Positions 22,022 through 29,416 of a DNA stretch of 32,387 bases are shown in pieces. Numbering within the stretch: position 1 is the stretch's first letter; each line of letters starts with the position of its first letter. The position numbers were made by a program, and so were the translations under genes. Source of the DNA: Aphanizomenon flos-aquae FACHB-1287. Lineage in GTDB: Bacteria > Cyanobacteriota > Cyanobacteriia > Cyanobacteriales > Nostocaceae. The notes below the pieces were generated by a model. The model was not told the DNA's origin. It ran no database searches and was given only the letters and a program-made list of their open reading frames with translations. The stretch covers positions 1-32,387 of the forward strand of contig NZ_JACJTO010000043.1 in the NCBI RefSeq assembly GCF_014698755.1. Direction: 5' to 3'.

Positions 22022-22852
22022 CTAACTAGGAAATTCTTCACCATTTCCTATAATATTCACCAATGATACCCATTGGGCAATACCCAGGTCTTCAGCGCGG
22101 ACTTGGGGATTTATTTCTAATTGTTCCAGTAATTGGGTCAAGTTATCACGTGCAATTACCGATTGTAAATTATTTCTTAACATTTTTCGCTTTGAACCGA
22201 ATCCCAATTTTACCAGAGTTTCTAGCTTTTTCGGGTCATGAGCCGGAATTTCTATCTGTTTCGGAATCAACCGCACCACAGCGGAATCTACCTTTGGTGG
22301 AGGTACAAAGGCCGCAGCGGGAACTGTACAAATTAATTCACAATCTGCCAAATATTGTACTCGCACCGACAACGCCCCAAAAGTCCTAGAACCAGGTTTA
22401 GCATATAATCTTTCTGCTACTTCCTTCTGTACTAACAAAACAATAGCATCAAAAGGTTCTGGGTTGGGATGAGAAATTGTCCCCAGTAACTTTTCAATAA
22501 TTGGCCCAGTAATATTATAAGGAATATTTGCAACAACTTTATTTTGCTTTTGAAAATTAGCAAATGCCGTTAATTGGGATGGTAAATCAAGAGTGAGAAA
22601 ATCCCCTTGTAATAATAAGAAATTTTCTTTTTCACCCATTTGTTTAGCCAGTAACTTACACAAATCTCGATCAATTTCTACAGCTAATAAAGATTTCACT
22701 AGCGGTAATAAACGACGAGTAAGAATTCCCGTACCAGGTCCAATTTCCAGAACCTTATCAGTTTCTTGACAATTAGCCGCTTGCACAATTGCATTTAAAG
22801 CTTTATCGCTTTTTAACCAATGTTGAGCAAACTGTTTACGGGGTTGAATCAT
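22022..22852 (-). CDS. rsmA: 16S rRNA (adenine1518/1519-N6) dimethyltransferase
   Basis: A 276-aa KsgA/RsmA enzyme that dimethylates two adjacent adenines in helix 45 of 16S rRNA during 30S maturation. The N-terminus has RKQFAQHWLKSDKALNAIV. The SAM-binding motif is VLEIGPGTGILTRRLL (about 34-49), an acidic VEID follows, and the catalytic motif is NIPY (near 112). FVPPPKVDSAVVRL is the conserved target-handling block. The C-terminal helical domain is complete. The gene precedes ispE by about 50 bp, an order common in cyanobacteria. Confidence 0.95.
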   Translation of the reverse strand: MIQPRKQFAQHWLKSDKALNAIVQAANCQETDKVLEIGPGTGILTRRLLPLVKSLLAVEIDRDLCKLLAKQMGEKENFLLLQGDFLTLDLPSQLTAFANFQKQNKVVANIPYNITGPIIEKLLGTISHPNPEPFDAIVLLVQKEVAERLYAKPGSRTFGALSVRVQYLADCELICTVPAAAFVPPPKVDSAVVRLIPKQIEIPAHDPKKLETLVKLGFGSKRKMLRNNLQSVIARDNLTQLLEQLEINPQVRAEDLGIAQWVSLVNIIGNGEEFPS

Positions 22853-22935: not shown

Positions 22936-23220
22936 TTACCCTAAATCATTTCTTCTATTGTCCGGCTTAATATCCCTTGAGTTAGAGGATTTTTGAAAAG
23001 TTTTCAGAGGTAATTTTATGCTAATTACCTGACTATGATCAGAATCATAGCATCGCTCTGGCACATTGGCGGCGGCGATTAACACCCGCAGAATCAAACC
23101 TAATGTATCAACGGTCATAAACCGCTTCCGCTCTTTGATTTGTTTGTCCACATTATATCCTACTTCCTGACTCACCACGACGGCACTTTTTACACTTTGA
23201 CTATCGATTATGGCTTCTGA
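22936..23220 (-). pseudogene. IS5-family transposase fragment
   Basis: On the minus strand from about 23220 the translation EAIIDSQSVKSAVVVSQEVG, then DKQIKERKRFMTVDTLGLIL and RVLIAAANVPER, matches the central part of IS5-type DDE transposases (AIIDSQSVK, KGRKRHLLVDTLGL, VTAANVxER). Both the N-terminal half and the C-terminal catalytic part are missing. After PERCYD the frame degenerates into unrelated sequence to TAA at 22936. It sits immediately downstream of the dynamin operon's last stop (23245). The IS termini cannot be placed. Confidence 0.8.
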
Positions 23221-23244: not shown

Positions 23245-25542
23245 TTAGATATTCTTCTCCCTATTTTCTAGAATATTACTTTTTAAAGCAATAGATAATT
23301 GTCGTAATCTTTCACTAACTTCTAAATTAGATGCTTGCGATTTTAAATTATTGGGTATTTCCGCTAATAAAAGTGGATTTCCTTGTAACCATTCATTCAA
23401 AGCTACCCCTGTCCAAGTTCCTTCTTTTTCTCGAAAACTATCAACTAAACCTTTGAGTTCTTGAATACAATAGGATTCAAAACTAGCAGCGTTAAAAATT
23501 GCAAATTTTAAATATTCTTCAAAAGCATTAATATCATTTTCCACTTCAAAAATTACCGCTTGTTGTGGTATTTCGTTATTAATAGCTGCTGTTGCTATTC
23601 CTGTTACTATTCCCGTAATTCCTAATACTTGTTGACGAACTTCTAAGTTAAAAAGTAAATCTGCACCATATTTTACATATCTTTTCAAAAGACTATAAGC
23701 AGGTTCTTTACCACTATAATAATTGTCAACAATTTCAATATCTACCCCCAGACTTTTAATGATTTTATTGCGAGTGTCACTATTAATAGGACCTCTAATT
23801 AATGCTTCTGCGACAGGTCGCGCAAACCGCAAAAATAAGACACTGAGACTATTTTCTAATTTAGCTAAAAAATAATCTTCTGAATTTTCAATTAACCTAG
23901 CTTTTACTTGATCACTTCCCCATAATAAACTTGTCATATATGCAACTAAGTTTAAGGATTCATTTTGTAATTCTAAAGCCAATTGTCTAGCAATATTAGA
24001 TAAAAGTCTACTTATATCATTATACAAATCCTCTCTCCAAGCAAAATTAGCTTTCATTCTATCAAATTCAGGATTGGAATTAGCCAAAAAGATAGTATCT
24101 TTCTTTTTAAAAGTTTCCTCTCGGAGTTTCTGCATTTCTTGATCAACGATTTCTAGATATCCTTCTCGAAATTTCTCTATTTGAGTTAAGGAATTAGCGG
24201 TTAAATTGTCTAAAGCTTTATTGATAATATAAGCATCATAGTATTTTTGTAAATCAGCTTTAATGATTAACCATTTTTGATTCCACCATTCTGCAAATAA
24301 AACCCGTTGATTGTTTTCTGCAAATAGCTTTGCTTGTTCAGGATTTTCTGGATGATTTTTACTAACTAAACGATAAATTTCTTCAGATGTGCTAATAATT
24401 GTATTTAGAGAAGCTTCACACCGTTTCTTTAAAATAGCGACTCTTTCGGTATTAATATAATCAAAGATTTTCTCTTTAATTACAGGAATACCAGTAGCAT
24501 CTGTTTTGAGAATTTCCACATCATCAATACCTGTTAATCTCTGTAAATGAGATTGAATAATATGGGTATCTCCTATTTCTAATTTAGTTTGTTCTCCGGC
24601 TATATTATTTAATAGCAAATATGCACCAGCAGAACCAGAAACTATTCTATGATTTGGTAAATTTGCCCGTTTTAACCAATCTTGAGCAGCTTCTTGAATG
24701 TGGGTTTTCATTGCTTCTGCACTACCTAATGAATCAATGCGACTTAAAAATACAAATAATTTATCAGCAACAGTGACGTTTTTATCTCCCTGTTCTGTAA
24801 ATTTGATAATTTCTAATTCCTTTTCTCGCAGACTGGTAAAACGCTGTACTAATATCACAGCATCACAATCTGATAACATTTCTTGTGCTTCGTCAACGTG
24901 CTTTGCTAAACCTGAATCTAAACCGGGAACATCATAAAATACAATTCCTTCAGCTTGTGCAAGTTTGTTAGTATAAAGTCTCGCTTCTAACACAGCATGA
25001 GCATATTTTTCATCTGCTACATATTTTTTTAAAGGTTCTCGAATATCCTCTAATCTCGTAAATGGAAATGTTAGATTTCCTTCTTGTCTCACTTCTTGTA
25101 AAGTGATTTCATTGGTGCGAATAGTATTAATATCTTCTTGGGCTTGAGCTTTTTCTAATTCTTTGAGTAAGTTGATAAATTCAGCTTCTGTCTTTGCTTG
25201 TACTTCTAATCTTTGTTCTGATTCATGTTCAACCGAATAAATTTGTGTGGTAGTAAATGTACATCTTCCTCCCTTCGCTGGAAGTAAGTCACATTCTAAC
25301 CAAGCATTCACAAAAGTGCTTTTCCCAGCTTTTTCTAACCCGACTACTGCAATGCGAAATTCCCGTTTTTTGAGTCTTTCCAGTTGACGACGTGCGGGTT
25401 GTGCTTCTTGTAATAGGATTTGTTTTAATTTAGGGGGAACTTCTGCTTGAGGTAAGTTGGCTAAATTAACCGCGTGTCTTTGGATATTTAAAGCGTCGGT
25501 TAAACGGGTTTCATAGTAGGAAGATGCTGTTTTCCAATCCAT
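23245..25542 (-). CDS. Dynamin-like GTPase, second of a tandem pair
   Basis: A 765-aa dynamin-family GTPase: G1 GLEKAGKST (68-76), G2 region CTFTTTQ (94-100), G3 DVPGLDSG (204-211) and G4 SRID (267-270), inside a domain preceded by about 60 helical residues. The rest is a long helical stalk with a hydrophobic stretch near 645-665 (VLGITGIVTGIATAAI) that could insert in a membrane like the paddle of bacterial dynamins. Bacterial dynamin-like proteins bind and remodel membranes in a GTP-dependent way, often as pairs. It is the last gene of a four-gene operon, 12 bp after the 271-aa membrane protein. No Shine-Dalgarno stands out beyond GGAG in that gap (plus-strand ctcc at 25551-25554). Confidence 0.88.
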   Translation of the reverse strand: MDWKTASSYYETRLTDALNIQRHAVNLANLPQAEVPPKLKQILLQEAQPARRQLERLKKREFRIAVVGLEKAGKSTFVNAWLECDLLPAKGGRCTFTTTQIYSVEHESEQRLEVQAKTEAEFINLLKELEKAQAQEDINTIRTNEITLQEVRQEGNLTFPFTRLEDIREPLKKYVADEKYAHAVLEARLYTNKLAQAEGIVFYDVPGLDSGLAKHVDEAQEMLSDCDAVILVQRFTSLREKELEIIKFTEQGDKNVTVADKLFVFLSRIDSLGSAEAMKTHIQEAAQDWLKRANLPNHRIVSGSAGAYLLLNNIAGEQTKLEIGDTHIIQSHLQRLTGIDDVEILKTDATGIPVIKEKIFDYINTERVAILKKRCEASLNTIISTSEEIYRLVSKNHPENPEQAKLFAENNQRVLFAEWWNQKWLIIKADLQKYYDAYIINKALDNLTANSLTQIEKFREGYLEIVDQEMQKLREETFKKKDTIFLANSNPEFDRMKANFAWREDLYNDISRLLSNIARQLALELQNESLNLVAYMTSLLWGSDQVKARLIENSEDYFLAKLENSLSVLFLRFARPVAEALIRGPINSDTRNKIIKSLGVDIEIVDNYYSGKEPAYSLLKRYVKYGADLLFNLEVRQQVLGITGIVTGIATAAINNEIPQQAVIFEVENDINAFEEYLKFAIFNAASFESYCIQELKGLVDSFREKEGTWTGVALNEWLQGNPLLLAEIPNNLKSQASNLEVSERLRQLSIALKSNILENREKNI

Positions 25543-25554
25543 TGTAGATACTCC

Positions 25555-26370
25555 TTAAATACGGTTAAATTTTTTTAAACCAGATAAATTTCCAAGACAA
25601 GCTAATTTCTTAACTGTACAATCTGCTTGACTTGGTAGATTATTCTTTAAAGAAAAACGTACATCTTGATTAATCATATTACGACCATCATTAATATTGA
25701 TTCTGATATAAACTTCCCGTATGCTATCAGATGAAATATTATCATCGGTTATTTCTAAATTTTGCTCATTTGCGTCAGCAACTTTAACACTAGTACATAG
25801 GAAGTAAGAAGCATTATCTATGAGGTAGATTAGCTCATCAACCTTTAAATTTGAACGATTTATGAAATTACTAGCTATAGATGCTGGAACAACAAGACAT
25901 AAATCCGCAGGAATTGGACGCTGATAAATTGGTTGTTCTTGTGTTGCTGTTATAGTTGGTTTAATTTTTTCCTGATCTTTTTTATCACGAATTTGTTTAT
26001 AATAAAATAAGCCAACGAATGTAAAAGCTGCTGCTACAAAAATCCATTCCATATTTTCTCCTTTGAAAAACATATTGTCTCCTTTTAAAAAACCGCTTAT
26101 TGCCATTCTAGCCGGTTCTTTGGCTATTGATTTTTTTAAGATTTCATCCAACAAGTCATCAATAATTTTTCTATCGTCCTCTTTATCAGCACTAGGTCGT
26201 ATACCAAACAAATTACATATTTTGATTGTCTCTATTTGCAATTGTGATTGTTCTTCATTAACTATTATTTGAATAGTCTTATATAAAATACCTTTTTTAA
26301 TTCCGTTTATTTGAGGATATACGTTATTAAAAATTCGAGGATATAGATTCTTAGGATTCTGGTTTACCAC
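25555..26370 (-). CDS. Single-pass membrane protein of unknown family in dynamin operon
   Basis: A 271-aa protein I cannot assign. An N-terminal cytosolic-type domain (1-105), mixed helix and strand, contains an acidic helix KEDDRKIIDDLLDEILKK (63-80). One membrane helix follows at 108-124 (EWIFVAAAFTFVGLFYY) with basic residues after it. A C-terminal domain (135-271) has predicted strands and four cysteines (C157, C193, C248, C255 approximately). There is no signal peptide and no recognisable catalytic motif. It is placed between the two dynamin-like genes with 6-12 bp gaps, so it is surely co-expressed with them and may anchor or recruit them to a membrane (inference). Confidence 0.7.
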   Translation of the reverse strand: MVNQNPKNLYPRIFNNVYPQINGIKKGILYKTIQIIVNEEQSQLQIETIKICNLFGIRPSADKEDDRKIIDDLLDEILKKSIAKEPARMAISGFLKGDNMFFKGENMEWIFVAAAFTFVGLFYYKQIRDKKDQEKIKPTITATQEQPIYQRPIPADLCLVVPASIASNFINRSNLKVDELIYLIDNASYFLCTSVKVADANEQNLEITDDNISSDSIREVYIRININDGRNMINQDVRFSLKNNLPSQADCTVKKLACLGNLSGLKKFNRI

Positions 26371-26376
26371 TAGGTT

Positions 26377-26571
26377 TTAAGACTCCTTTTTTAAAACTAT
26401 CTCTAACCTACAAAATTCTTCTGCAAGGTTTTGAGCTTTTTCTTGCATAGGTTGCCAAATATTTCTTTGGTTTTCATAATCTAGAGTAATTTCTTGGTTA
26501 GCTTTATCAAGTCTAGCTTGATAACGGTCAATAATATCATTCTGAAGTTTATCTACATTTTTTTTAGACAA
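26377..26571 (-). CDS. Small coiled-coil protein in dynamin operon
   Basis: A 64-aa, charged, almost entirely helical protein (DIIDRYQARLDKANQEITLDYENQ in the middle) with one cysteine. Its first codons overlap the end of the upstream dynamin-like gene by 19 bp, implying translational coupling, and the next gene begins 6 bp after it. It is unrecognised. Size and helix content suggest an adaptor or assembly factor for the neighbouring GTPases. The overlap and operon position argue that it is real despite its length. Confidence 0.6.
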   Translation of the reverse strand: MSKKNVDKLQNDIIDRYQARLDKANQEITLDYENQRNIWQPMQEKAQNLAEEFCRLEIVLKKES

Positions 26572-28799
26572 TCAATTTGTTCTAGTAGCCAAGTTGCAAT
26601 TTTGTTGACTATTTTTCTTTCTTCCTTTTTAGACTGAATCAGCCAACCTCTCAGTAAATTGTTCACACTAGGTATTTCGGCATTATCACTAGAACGGGTT
26701 TCATATTGGGTTTCATAAAAAGTCTCTTCCCAAAGCCATAATGTGTACCAATCTCTTCGCTTTTTTTCAATCTTTATTTCTTCTTTCCATGTTCCTTGAT
26801 TAATAGGAAACCCTGCTTCAAAACGAAAGTTAAATGTAAGTTGACTATCAACTTTAATAAGTTGAGATTCTGGAAATTTAATTGCTATATTAGGTGAAAT
26901 ATCATTTGCTCCCTTTTCAATATGAGATAAATGACAATTAAAAAGTTCTACTACTGCTTGGTACATTCTATTTAATTCTTGGCTGGAAATCTGCTTTAAT
27001 ACATCCTCCATCACAATATTCAAATGAATAGCTAGTTCATTTAATTCTTCATTTATTTGTTTAAGTTGATTCTTTTCTAAATCTGTTCTTGCTTCCATTA
27101 TTTTCCCTTCTTTAGCTACGGAAGCAGTATAACCTAAATTTACAAGTCGGTTTAAGTTTCTTCCTAGCAAATTGACATTTAAAAGATTTGCTTTTTTAAA
27201 ATTTGTACTGTCTAAATCTACCTTTCCAGTTTCTAAAGACTGTGCTATTACTTCTAATACTTGGTTAATTCCTTGACCTAATTCCCGTCTCCATCCATAA
27301 AGGGGATATAATTTTTCTCCTAATAGATTATCTCCTAATAGATTATAAGGTTCTACATTTTTAAGTTCTAAAATTGTTGATTCAAGATATAGCACAGGAT
27401 CATCTTCTGACTGTTCTGCTATAACTTGTTTAATCTTGGTATCTATTCTTTCAAATGGCTCTCTTAAATTTGTATCGCTAATTTGTAAGAAACGCTCAAT
27501 TGATGATCTAATCTGTGATATCTTTTCACATTCTTCTTGATACCGTTCCTCCGAACTATTAAGCACAGCATTTGTTGTCTGTGTTGCCCATTCCGCGATC
27601 GCATTTCCAGCAGCTATATTAAAACGTTCTATAATTTGGGGAATTACTAACTGGGGAAAATGTTTATTAATATGTTCCCTGAGATTTTCCTGAAATTCCT
27701 CACCATAGGATTTCTCCCATAATGCTTCAGCAACTCTATTTTTATCGTGTCTATTCCATTTTTGTGTATTACGTGGCAAATCTTCTAAAATATCTTCAAT
27801 TAAGCCATTAAAATGATTATCGGCTTTTTTACAAGCATCTGCACTGTAAATATCATCTTGATTTTGAATTTGCAAAGACAACAAAGCAGGCCATGTACTC
27901 AGTTTAACTACTTTTAAATTTTCAATATCTTCTGTATATTCCTTTAATTGCTCAGTTAATTCATTTTTAATATCACGAATAGCTTTTTCAACAAACCGAT
28001 TTTCTGATTCTGGCCAGCTTCTATCGGCTCGAAAAACATCAATCCTATTCAGTGCAAAAAGCATCCGCGCCGGAGAACCACCTAAATCTTTTACCTGCTG
28101 TACTACCTCTTGCAATAAACTTTTTACCTTCTGAGAATCTGTCTCAGCACTATTATAAGTAACTATACACAAAGCCTCTCGACATTGTTTAATCACATTA
28201 GCATTACCCTGATCACCCACATAAGCTAAACCAGGTAAATCAAGTATTCTTACTCTTGTTGCTTTTGGTAATTGTAATTGAGATTCTTTTAACAGTCGAA
28301 AAGGATAAGTAATTGTAGATTGGGGACAGGCTAAATTAGGTTGGGTTTCTCTATTTTCGATATAACTTATCATTGCTTGATAAAGACGTTGATAAATTTT
28401 ATCGTCACTAATTCCTCTCCATTCTCCACACTCCCATAACGCCCCCGGTGTTTCCTTAATGATAAGAGATTTTTCTTTACTGTACTCAATTGTCACTGCA
28501 CCAGCGCTCATTTCACTAACTGCAACCGGGACAATTTCAGCACCACATAATAAATTAACTAAGGTGCTTTTACCACTACTTGTAGTCCCTGTGGTGGCTA
28601 AAGTAAGAGTAGGATTTTGTAGTTCGTAAATGAGTTGATTTAAGGCTTTTTCTAAGTTGTTGGATAGTTCTTGTATTTCCGACTGATAACTCTCTGGTAA
28701 GTGCTGAGATATTTCCGTCTGAAAGTTATCCCAATATTGAGCCAGTAGCTTGGCTTTAAACTCAATTTTTTCAAATACTTTGTATACTGAGTTGCTCAT
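26553..28799 (-). CDS. Dynamin-like GTPase, first of a tandem pair
   Basis: A 748-aa dynamin-family GTPase. G1 is GTTSSGKST (71-79), the G2 threonine lies near AGAVTIEY (99-106), G3 is DLPG (187-190) and G4 is NRID (251-254). Helical regions before and after form the expected bundle and stalk. The last 90 residues (RRDWYTLWLWEET, SSDNAEIPSVNNLL, IATWLLEQID) form a distinct C-terminal module not seen in the partner GTPase. Sequence differs strongly from the second dynamin, so the pair is not a recent duplication. It is the first gene of the operon and overlaps the 64-aa gene by 19 bp. Likely membrane remodelling; a defence role is inferred from family precedent. Confidence 0.88.
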   Translation of the reverse strand: MSNSVYKVFEKIEFKAKLLAQYWDNFQTEISQHLPESYQSEIQELSNNLEKALNQLIYELQNPTLTLATTGTTSSGKSTLVNLLCGAEIVPVAVSEMSAGAVTIEYSKEKSLIIKETPGALWECGEWRGISDDKIYQRLYQAMISYIENRETQPNLACPQSTITYPFRLLKESQLQLPKATRVRILDLPGLAYVGDQGNANVIKQCREALCIVTYNSAETDSQKVKSLLQEVVQQVKDLGGSPARMLFALNRIDVFRADRSWPESENRFVEKAIRDIKNELTEQLKEYTEDIENLKVVKLSTWPALLSLQIQNQDDIYSADACKKADNHFNGLIEDILEDLPRNTQKWNRHDKNRVAEALWEKSYGEEFQENLREHINKHFPQLVIPQIIERFNIAAGNAIAEWATQTTNAVLNSSEERYQEECEKISQIRSSIERFLQISDTNLREPFERIDTKIKQVIAEQSEDDPVLYLESTILELKNVEPYNLLGDNLLGEKLYPLYGWRRELGQGINQVLEVIAQSLETGKVDLDSTNFKKANLLNVNLLGRNLNRLVNLGYTASVAKEGKIMEARTDLEKNQLKQINEELNELAIHLNIVMEDVLKQISSQELNRMYQAVVELFNCHLSHIEKGANDISPNIAIKFPESQLIKVDSQLTFNFRFEAGFPINQGTWKEEIKIEKKRRDWYTLWLWEETFYETQYETRSSDNAEIPSVNNLLRGWLIQSKKEERKIVNKIATWLLEQIDCLKKM

Positions 28800-29068: not shown

Positions 29069-29416
29069 TTAAAACTGCTCTAAATACTGATTAAGATCCT
29101 CAATAACGCGGGTAAGTTCCGCTTCTGTTGTCAACCGAATACCTAAATTGCGAATTGTTAACAAAACTTTAGCCGCAAAGGGAGTAGGCCAGATATTAGG
29201 ATTACAAAATATCTCTACAAATACATCCCCAGTATAACGATACTCTAAGGAAGGTTGAGGACTAACTTTACCTGTACCGGGAGTTTTAGCAGCAACAGCT
29301 TTGAGGCTTTTCATTAATTCATTGATTTCTGCTTTTAATTCTTGCGCTGCTTGGTGTGAAAAACTGAAGGAAACAGAACCTTCTACTAGATTTAGTGTTA
29401 GAGGTACAGAAGACAT
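29069..29416 (-). CDS. Conserved-looking hypothetical cyanobacterial protein
   Basis: A 115-aa soluble protein of unknown function. A strand-rich N-terminus (SVPLTLNLVEGSVSFSFSHQ) is followed by a helix (AAQELKAEINELMKSLKAV), a basic Pro/Gly linker, then strands (EYRYTGDVFVEIFCNP) and helices to the end. No membrane helix or metal motif is seen. It lies 270 bp upstream of the dynamin operon on the same strand, with a hairpin between, so co-transcription is unlikely. It is divergent from the CDF transporter. Confidence 0.6.
   Translation of the reverse strand: MSSVPLTLNLVEGSVSFSFSHQAAQELKAEINELMKSLKAVAAKTPGTGKVSPQPSLEYRYTGDVFVEIFCNPNIWPTPFAAKVLLTIRNLGIRLTTEAELTRVIEDLNQYLEQF

Follow-up and report, generated by a model that had tools for sequence, protein, structure and literature searches.

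A stretch of 32,387 nucleotides from Aphanizomenon flos-aquae FACHB-1287 (contig NZ_JACJTO010000043.1 of a 4.35-Mb draft genome in 85 contigs), hereafter the window, carries on its minus strand an operon for two unlike dynamin-like GTPases, DynA and DynB, with a middle protein (MP) encoded between them. The initial annotation had described four genes, the additional one encoding a coiled-coil peptide of 64 amino acids (aa). All four open reading frames (ORFs) exist where they had been placed, on the minus strand, and the 64-aa ORF has a TTG start and a 19-bp overlap. Nevertheless, the operon comprises only three genes, the 64-aa ORF being the tail of DynA. The features are:

26553..28799, minus strand: DynA, first dynamin-like GTPase (ORF of 748 aa; Dynamin_N at 1.6e-11; about 800 aa in relatives, tail included)
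26377..26571, minus strand: DynA C-terminal tail in the -1 frame (the 64-aa ORF), recognized by homology to intact DynA ends
26558..26565, minus strand: A-tract, site of the frame change in DynA (one-base length difference from loci L046-L051)
25555..26370, minus strand: MP, 271 aa (ORF with GTG start; three-part predicted model)
25966..26049, minus strand: predicted MP membrane helix, residues 108-135 (model helix and hydropathy)
23245..25542, minus strand: DynB, second dynamin-like GTPase, 765 aa (ORF; Dynamin_N at 3.4e-16)
25558..27482, minus strand: variable cassette, DynA from about codon 440 to its end, plus MP (step in synonymous divergence)

The two end genes had been read as unlike dynamins, which is borne out. 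The Pfam domain Dynamin_N is matched with 44.9 bits in DynA and 60.1 bits in DynB (gathering cut-off 27), while the two proteins hardly resemble each other in sequence (E 0.014 by BLASTP; probability 8.7% by profile-profile comparison, with the alignment confined to the N-terminal GTPase region). The AlphaFold model of the L046 DynA, which is 91% identical to the window copy, has a predicted local distance difference test score (pLDDT) of 84.7 and presents the head, long helical neck or trunk, and tip of a dynamin. Foldseek matches it to BDLP (2j68), IniA, and mitofusins with a probability of 1.00 and template-modelling (TM) scores of 0.25-0.48, the top match being 2j68 (E 1.3e-11, 12% identity). 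The model thus predicts a dynamin fold for DynA.

Comparison with relatives identifies the 64-aa ORF as the C-terminal ~60 residues of DynA, read in the -1 frame. In the L046 model, these residues form the end of the last long stalk helix (707-765), plus a helix at 770-796. The tail is in one frame with DynA in 41 of the 45 loci having a DynA match (loci from genome contigs, with at least 50 residues ahead of the tail required in the same frame), and all 41 are free of stops across the alignment. Of the four exceptions, L056 is at a contig edge, L077 and L087 are distant, partial matches, and in L089 the DynA match stops before the tail. A dedicated peptide gene, as initially annotated, is therefore rejected. 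At the A-tract, the window differs by one base from the in-frame tract of L046-L051, where intact DynA copies thus exist. DynA is broken at other sites in L054, L067, L076, and L084, and the tail is lost in L089, so that frame breaks are sporadic. Unless sequencing error accounts for the break, which lies near the end of the frame, the window copy would have no activity, partial activity, or activity restored by slippage.

A real 64-aa product, made by -1 frameshifting, by transcript slippage at the A-tract, or from a gene of its own, is very unlikely. The tail is still near that of L049 (nonsynonymous divergence, dN, 0.03 and synonymous divergence, dS, 0.06 over 61 codons), and A-tracts of such a kind can slip. 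Against this stand the in-frame tails of the 41 loci, the absence among these loci of any other break at that tract, the breaks elsewhere in four loci, the place of the tail at the end of the last stalk helix in the model, and the possibility of an assembly error in a draft genome. Separately, extra truncated DynA copies (L037:5376-6800 and L042:12202-13611) match the first 405-450 codons only; the one in L037 matches codons 1-450, and so stops near the cassette boundary.

MP has no match in Pfam (at E 1), NCBIfam, PADLOC, or the sequences of the PDB. Its predicted model (mean pLDDT 87.1, with the C-domain confidently predicted in blocks of 90-98) matches no PDB fold at E 0.001, and the best hit (E 0.099, probability 0.21) was counted as nothing. 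The predicted layout consists of a helical N-terminal domain (about residues 6-96), a helix at 108-135, a linker, and an alpha/beta C-domain (155-271). The helix coincides with a hydrophobic stretch whose 19-residue mean hydropathy is 1.36 in the window. This is weaker than in most MPs, as 32 of the 43 scanned (window included) have a hydrophobic 19-mer with a mean of at least 1.6 ahead of the C-domain. The initial description of the middle gene as encoding a membrane protein is thus upheld for most MPs, though not for some short forms devoid of the helix.

Composition and distribution of the unit

The search for DynB relatives returned 80 loci, 53 of which (L046-L098) were analysed, L099-L125 being distant (identity of 31% or less). 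DynA, MP, and DynB occur together in 44 of the 53, mostly cyanobacterial. The nine incomplete loci comprise three contig edges (L063, L069, L073), two distant loci (L087, L092), three loci of purple sulphur bacteria (L090, L091, L095), and L067. Conversely, the search with MP yielded 20 loci, several of which coincide with those above; 19 contain DynA and 19 contain DynB. The gene order, whose recurrence had been put forward as a check, does recur, but as DynA-MP-DynB, the supposed 64-aa member being part of DynA.

Across 386 genomes of the phylum, DynB was found (E 1e-30) in 19: 13 times at full length, once cut by a contig end, and five times as fragments only. MP was found (E 0.001) in 20, comprising 14 genomes with DynB, one without it (G153), and five weak matches. 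It is present in 13/13 genomes with a full-length DynB and in the contig-end one, and in 0/5 fragment-only genomes. From these counts, the set is accessory, and its components occur as a group. The accessory nature initially proposed is supported by the 13/386 count and by gain and loss at one site (see below). Likewise, the unit is far from a fixed core locus of nearly all Nostocales, as MP occurs in 21 of 243 genomes of the order. The genes immediately upstream in the window, including one for a 115-aa protein, adjoin the operon only in L046, L047, L048, and L050, all of the Dolichospermum/Anabaena group. Among the open-licence papers listed in literature searches, none reports a DynA-MP-DynB unit or an exchange of dynamin segments.

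Relatives of DynB outside cyanobacteria include those of Methylococcales, Chromatium, Thiospirillum, Thiorhodovibrio, and Competibacteraceae. Five Methylococcales loci encode a DynB with 44-45% identity and a DynA with about 33-36% identity where long enough, and in the Competibacteraceae locus DynB converges on DynA-MP. Two loci labelled as Bacteroidota metagenome-assembled genomes (MAGs), L093 and L097, are 73-85% identical to the window DynB and are taken for contaminating cyanobacterial contigs. In the order of L078, 27 of 151 genomes contain a DynB relative, five of them of the operon type (at least 849 bits) and the rest weaker. All seven of the weaker places that were read hold solitary DynB-like genes.

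Those solitary genes in Methylococcales (L185, L186, L188-L192) occupy a few recurring places, and are candidates for a core dynamin of methanotrophs. One 2.6-Mb genome of the class to which the window belongs (G304; L146, L147) contains three DynA-MP units, two of them in tandem, with no DynB adjoining. A related but different unit, also without DynB, is found in G169, G378, and G017 (L148-L150): a more distant dynamin (820-888 aa) is followed by an MP-like gene (284-313 aa) and then by a third ORF (418-462 aa), which has no Pfam match above the gathering score in L148 and L150. Additionally, psaA-psaB lie just upstream of the operon in L039 and L041 (Microcystis group; assigned by Pfam) and in L043 (a Snowella MAG; assigned by similarity), possibly marking no more than an insertion site.

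Such neighbours and relatives would suit a housekeeping role, in which the system would look after thylakoid or other internal membranes in the manner of SynDLP or IM30/Vipp1, its variation reflecting adaptation to membranes or lipids. The Methylococcales, as well as the Chromatium, Thiospirillum, and Thiorhodovibrio groups, have intracytoplasmic membranes, and the solitary DynB-like genes also fit. Such a role is nevertheless unlikely. The DynBs of Chromatium and Thiospirillum are broken into pieces, and the Competibacteraceae genome also has a DynB. Moreover, maintenance agrees poorly with a full-length DynB in so few genomes of the phylum and fragments in five more, with the loss and replacement seen at a single site among genomes of one genus group, and with the allele-like exchange of distal DynA and MP described hereafter.

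Mosaic divergence and co-variation

The three genes of the unit have diverged very unequally. DynB identity is 58-90% across the 16 relatives of alignment A2. Compared with L046-L049, the window proteins show identities of 97% for DynB, 34-66% for MP, and 67-95% for DynA; Dolichospermum sp. FACHB-1091, D. circinale AWQC310F, and D. planctonicum NIES-80 have DynBs at this 97% level. Between L046 and L048, dS successively reaches 0.13, 0.25, and 0.88 along DynA, then 1.4-1.9 in MP, and falls to 0.03-0.13 in DynB. As synonymous sites are affected, fast protein change alone does not account for this mosaic.

The pattern was examined in 31 loci with three usable genes, which yield 28 pairs with a DynB dS of at most 0.35. 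These pairs are not independent, and the constancy of DynB in them is the criterion by which they were selected. In these pairs, dS exceeds three times that of DynB 18 times for MP, 17 times for DynA codons 450-745, and only 7 times for DynA codons 1-320. Distal DynA and MP are broadly either both diverged or both close, with intermediate pairs at a distal DynA and MP dS of 0.25 and 0.51 (window/L046) or 0.45 and 0.45 (L054/L055). The pairs stem from Dolichospermum, Microcystis, Moorena, and Microcoleus/Oscillatoriales, plus one Nodularia/Anabaenopsis pair, and the switch is seen in the first four groups. For pairs from Dolichospermum, Microcystis, and Moorena, there is a stepwise rise in divergence at about codon 440 (codon windows with starts of 401-441) and a drop again at DynB; the rise is more gradual in the Oscillatoriales pair. 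Synonymous differences in the constant and variable parts amount to 55/685 versus 192/341 (L046/L048), 66/688 versus 202/336 (L065/L066), 149/707 versus 181/295 (L055/L058), and 117/709 versus 160/348 (L040/L072). Flanks, which were not used for choosing the pairs, support the constancy of DynB where available: the upstream 115-aa gene is 97% identical in L046-L048, and the upstream flank together with the DynA head 96.7% in L065/L066.

Co-variation follows the same division. In partial Mantel tests over 28 loci, the MP C-domain correlates with distal DynA given DynB and DynA 1-320 (r 0.56), and DynA 1-320 correlates with DynB given distal DynA (r 0.78), each value being reached in 1 of 2001 permutations. 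The mean amino-acid difference is 0.30 for both the DynA head and DynB, 0.50 for distal DynA, and 0.58 for the MP C-domain. The MP N-domain is the most variable part (0.72 over 24 loci). For example, between the window and L049, dS is only 0.05 in distal DynA and 0.12 in the MP C-domain, whereas the MP N-domain shows a dN of 0.38 and a dS of 0.39.

Midpoint-rooted FastTree trees agree with this: they unite the six DynBs of the Dolichospermum group in an exclusive clade, and their DynA heads in a clade with one other member (L051). The distal DynAs and MPs of the same group do not cluster: L048 falls with Anabaena FACHB-1237 (L052), and L047 is far apart. Identity between L048 and L052 is about 91% in the cassette as well as in DynB, so that the cassette they have in common may be an old shared allele instead of a recent import.

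The linked switching and co-variation of distal DynA and MP would fit a cognate toxin-immunity pair equally well. In such a toxin-antidote or kin-discrimination system, distal DynA (with DynB) would damage membranes, MP would be the cognate restraint, and both would change together. Tandem MP copies in L048 and L052, and the lack of MP in the five genomes that have DynB relics only, also fit. Nevertheless, this explanation is quite unlikely, given the ordinary dynamin architecture of the DynA model and the existence of a locus (L067) with DynA pieces and DynB but no MP.

The insertion site and its neighbourhood

Two further features border the operon in the window:

29069..29416, minus strand: conserved 115-aa gene upstream, one edge of the Dolichospermum insertion site (in 10/10 genus-group genomes)
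23062..23220, minus strand: probable DDE transposase remnant between DynB and rsmA (DDE_Tnp_1 E 0.005, below the gathering score)

The ORF at 22022-22852 is taken to be rsmA. The transposase remnant is what supports the transposon debris initially noted at the 3' end of the operon, and it does so weakly, as its score lies under the gathering threshold. No family could be assigned with confidence to the 115-aa gene (a WapI-like match at E 0.016 is below the cut-off).

The 115-aa gene is present in all ten Dolichospermum genus-group genomes searched, while the contents beyond it vary. In G326, the site is empty, with no ORF of 70 aa between the 115-aa gene and a FIST-domain gene. G342 carries an intact operon and G000 an operon with a broken DynA, both without the FIST gene in the stretch examined. 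Relics remain in other genomes, namely DynB remnants in G235 and G423 and a DynA remnant in G181. In G128, an intact type IIG-like restriction gene and a PLD-helicase gene are followed by a 24-residue DynB scrap. G154 has only pieces of both genes and a 25-residue DynB scrap, and G345 has an intact copy of the restriction gene with the helicase in pieces. On a G347 contig that lacks the 115-aa gene, a PLD-helicase gene (91% identical), truncated at the contig end, comes immediately after the operon. This turnover looks like that of a defence hotspot. As seen in L151-L154 and L156-L160, the interval past the 115-aa gene, in several genomes up to the FIST gene, is an insertion hotspot.

Elsewhere, the operon has other neighbours. 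A wider neighbourhood, of 20 loci of which two had no flanking gene available, was assessed by scanning 148 of 151 flank genes from the remaining 18 loci with PADLOC, together with 148 of 222 control genes from 20 random regions of eight of the same genomes (every third control gene being skipped). The flank genes left out were two long ones and one other; one of the long genes encodes an amylase/maltokinase (L026:1270-4647), the other presumably an efflux protein. The scan matched 145 PADLOC families in flanks and 72 in controls. Among the 25 commonest families listed, both sets are headed by Cas12f models, and both include single restriction methylase genes. The Cas12f-model matches are taken to be transposon TnpB genes. 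As the number of matching proteins is not given, the result is read only as showing that the flanks of the 18 loci are not clearly enriched in PADLOC families relative to the 20 random regions. Proximity to defence genes, initially put forward as a check, is thus suggested for the Dolichospermum group by the restriction genes within or next to the site, but not by any clear enrichment over the 18 loci.

Known dynamin systems and the proposed function

The initial view that the unit is not obviously equal to known dynamin loci is sustained, as none of the dynamin systems tested gives a good match. In cyanobacteria, the NosDLP tandem (Tandem A-B; Jilly et al. 2018, PMC5827413) likewise consists of two unlike dynamins encoded side by side, but the available text of that source describes no middle gene. 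The DynB profile reaches the NosDLP structure 2j68 with E 0.0013 over query positions 43-99 only, too little for orthology. SynDLP (Slr0869 of Synechocystis), described in the available part of PMC10104851 as a cyanobacterial dynamin-like protein, is a fold match of the DynA model (7zw6, E 4.2e-9). Its sequence is matched by DynB in the GTPase region only (residues 190-282, E 2.4e-5), not over the full length, and by DynA not at all at E 0.01. Given these partial or weak sequence matches, close kinship to SynDLP or NosDLP was rejected.

Tandem dynamins are also known from Campylobacter, whose DLP1 and DLP2 form a hetero-oligomer tethering membranes, according to the accessible text of PMC6104087. 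Such an assembly would be a likeness to the pair described here, but DynA matches the Campylobacter proteins by fold only (5oxf, E 3.8e-8, and 5owv). Bacillus DynA differs in that two dynamins are fused in one chain; in the portion of PMC8844932 available, it is described as postponing lysis by phages and apparently helping to keep the membrane intact. Its NCBIfam model is matched partially by DynB (44.9 bits, cut-off 1600). The DO-GTPase/GAP1 conflict systems, as far as the accessible text of PMC7159879 describes them, also combine paired GTPases, a third core protein, and membrane components, but DO-GTPases are a separate TRAFAC family, unlike the dynamins here. No GAP1 domain appeared among the Pfam matches of five window proteins, and MP had no Pfam match at all at E 1. 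Finally, dynamins are named among phage-defence genes of Lake Okeechobee bloom cyanobacteria (PMC11265339), the available text of which names no genes or operon.

LeoA/LeoB/LeoC of Escherichia coli is likewise a dynamin pair in one putative operon on an island, with one dynamin split, as far as described in the available text of PMC4159319. That split is presented as conserved, while the split of the DynA tail was seen only in the window genome, and the middle part of Leo is a split dynamin rather than MP.

The best PADLOC match of DynA is LeoBC (34 bits, E 4.6e-9; LeoA 24.6 bits), and DynB matches only LeoBC, weakly (19.5 bits, E 1.1e-4). Eleos, the phage-defence system, is taken to be the defence name of Leo. 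These matches would suit an Eleos- or Leo-type pair with an additional gene. This is improbable, because no protein best-matches LeoA, so that the combination of one LeoA and one LeoBC partner is lacking. The scores are low and cover the N-terminal part only, the L046 DynB has no PADLOC match at 0.001, and the first dynamin is not conserved as two ORFs, given its in-frame tail in 41/45 loci.

The favoured reading, to which a probability of about 0.5 is assigned, is an accessory three-component membrane-remodelling GTPase system, DynA-MP-DynB, a hetero-dynamin with a matched exchangeable cassette that most likely has a protective role. DynA and DynB would pair, most likely through their conserved GTPase regions. 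MP, usually anchored in the membrane by its single helix, would hold or recruit the DynA stalk and tip. Because MP would bind these parts, distal DynA and MP would evolve as a matched set and be exchanged as one cassette, while DynB and, mostly, the DynA GTPase region would constitute a constant engine. To judge from the sequence variation, the matched parts are thus the DynA head with DynB, and the DynA stalk and tip with MP. Sensing is probably the task of the MP N-terminal domain, which varies most. Upon a trigger, such as phage entry or lysis proteins or membrane damage, MP would release or recruit the dynamin pair, which would then seal, fuse, or cut the membrane.

That stalk and MP are exchanged as allele classes found in more than one genus is indicative of selection favouring difference, of the kind known from defence or from self/non-self recognition. 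The first choice is phage defence, by analogy with Bacillus DynA (in the available part of PMC8844932) and Leo-type pairs; the restriction genes within or next to the site make the evidence suggestive for the Dolichospermum group. A more specific proposal, possible but tentative, is a dynamin immune system whose constant GTPase engine (DynA head and DynB) is aimed by interchangeable DynA-stalk/MP alleles. The MP N-domain would be the receptor, and the allele classes would be kept across species and genera by frequency-dependent selection. In its genetic logic, such a cassette would parallel the subunit that confers specificity on type I restriction systems.

Several observations weigh against the favoured reading. 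Concerning the cassette, a weaker link between MP and DynB stays after distal DynA is accounted for (r 0.31). In the Microcystis pair L041/L065, the DynA head is divergent (dS 0.45) and the distal part is not (0.04), and in L047 the whole DynA is divergent. Because of these two cases, the cassette edge must be regarded as moving, and the constancy of the DynA head as only a tendency. Concerning the composition, the purple sulphur bacteria (L090, L091, L095) have DynB pieces and no DynA or MP in the stretches examined, L067 lacks MP, and L027 lacks DynB. MP matches are weak in Methylococcales and Competibacteraceae (16-46 bits), and a few short MP forms consist of little beyond the C-domain, without the membrane helix. 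The dynamin fold prediction covers DynA alone, DynB being known from its sequence. Finally, the flank scan gave no clear excess of defence families; pattern scans detected no DynA or DynB relatives in viral contigs, and plasmids contained no DynB relatives.

Besides correcting the reading of a false fourth gene, this analysis concerns a question of wider relevance for the family. How bacterial dynamins sense their targets and what roles their partners have are largely open, and the reason for their frequent pairing is unsettled. The exchanges described here occur in closely similar backgrounds, with the same upstream gene and a near-identical DynB in Dolichospermum, and with ends that are 96-97% identical in Microcystis. 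A constant GTPase part combined with an exchanged stalk, tip, and partner would mark, from natural variation, which parts of such a system recognize and which execute.

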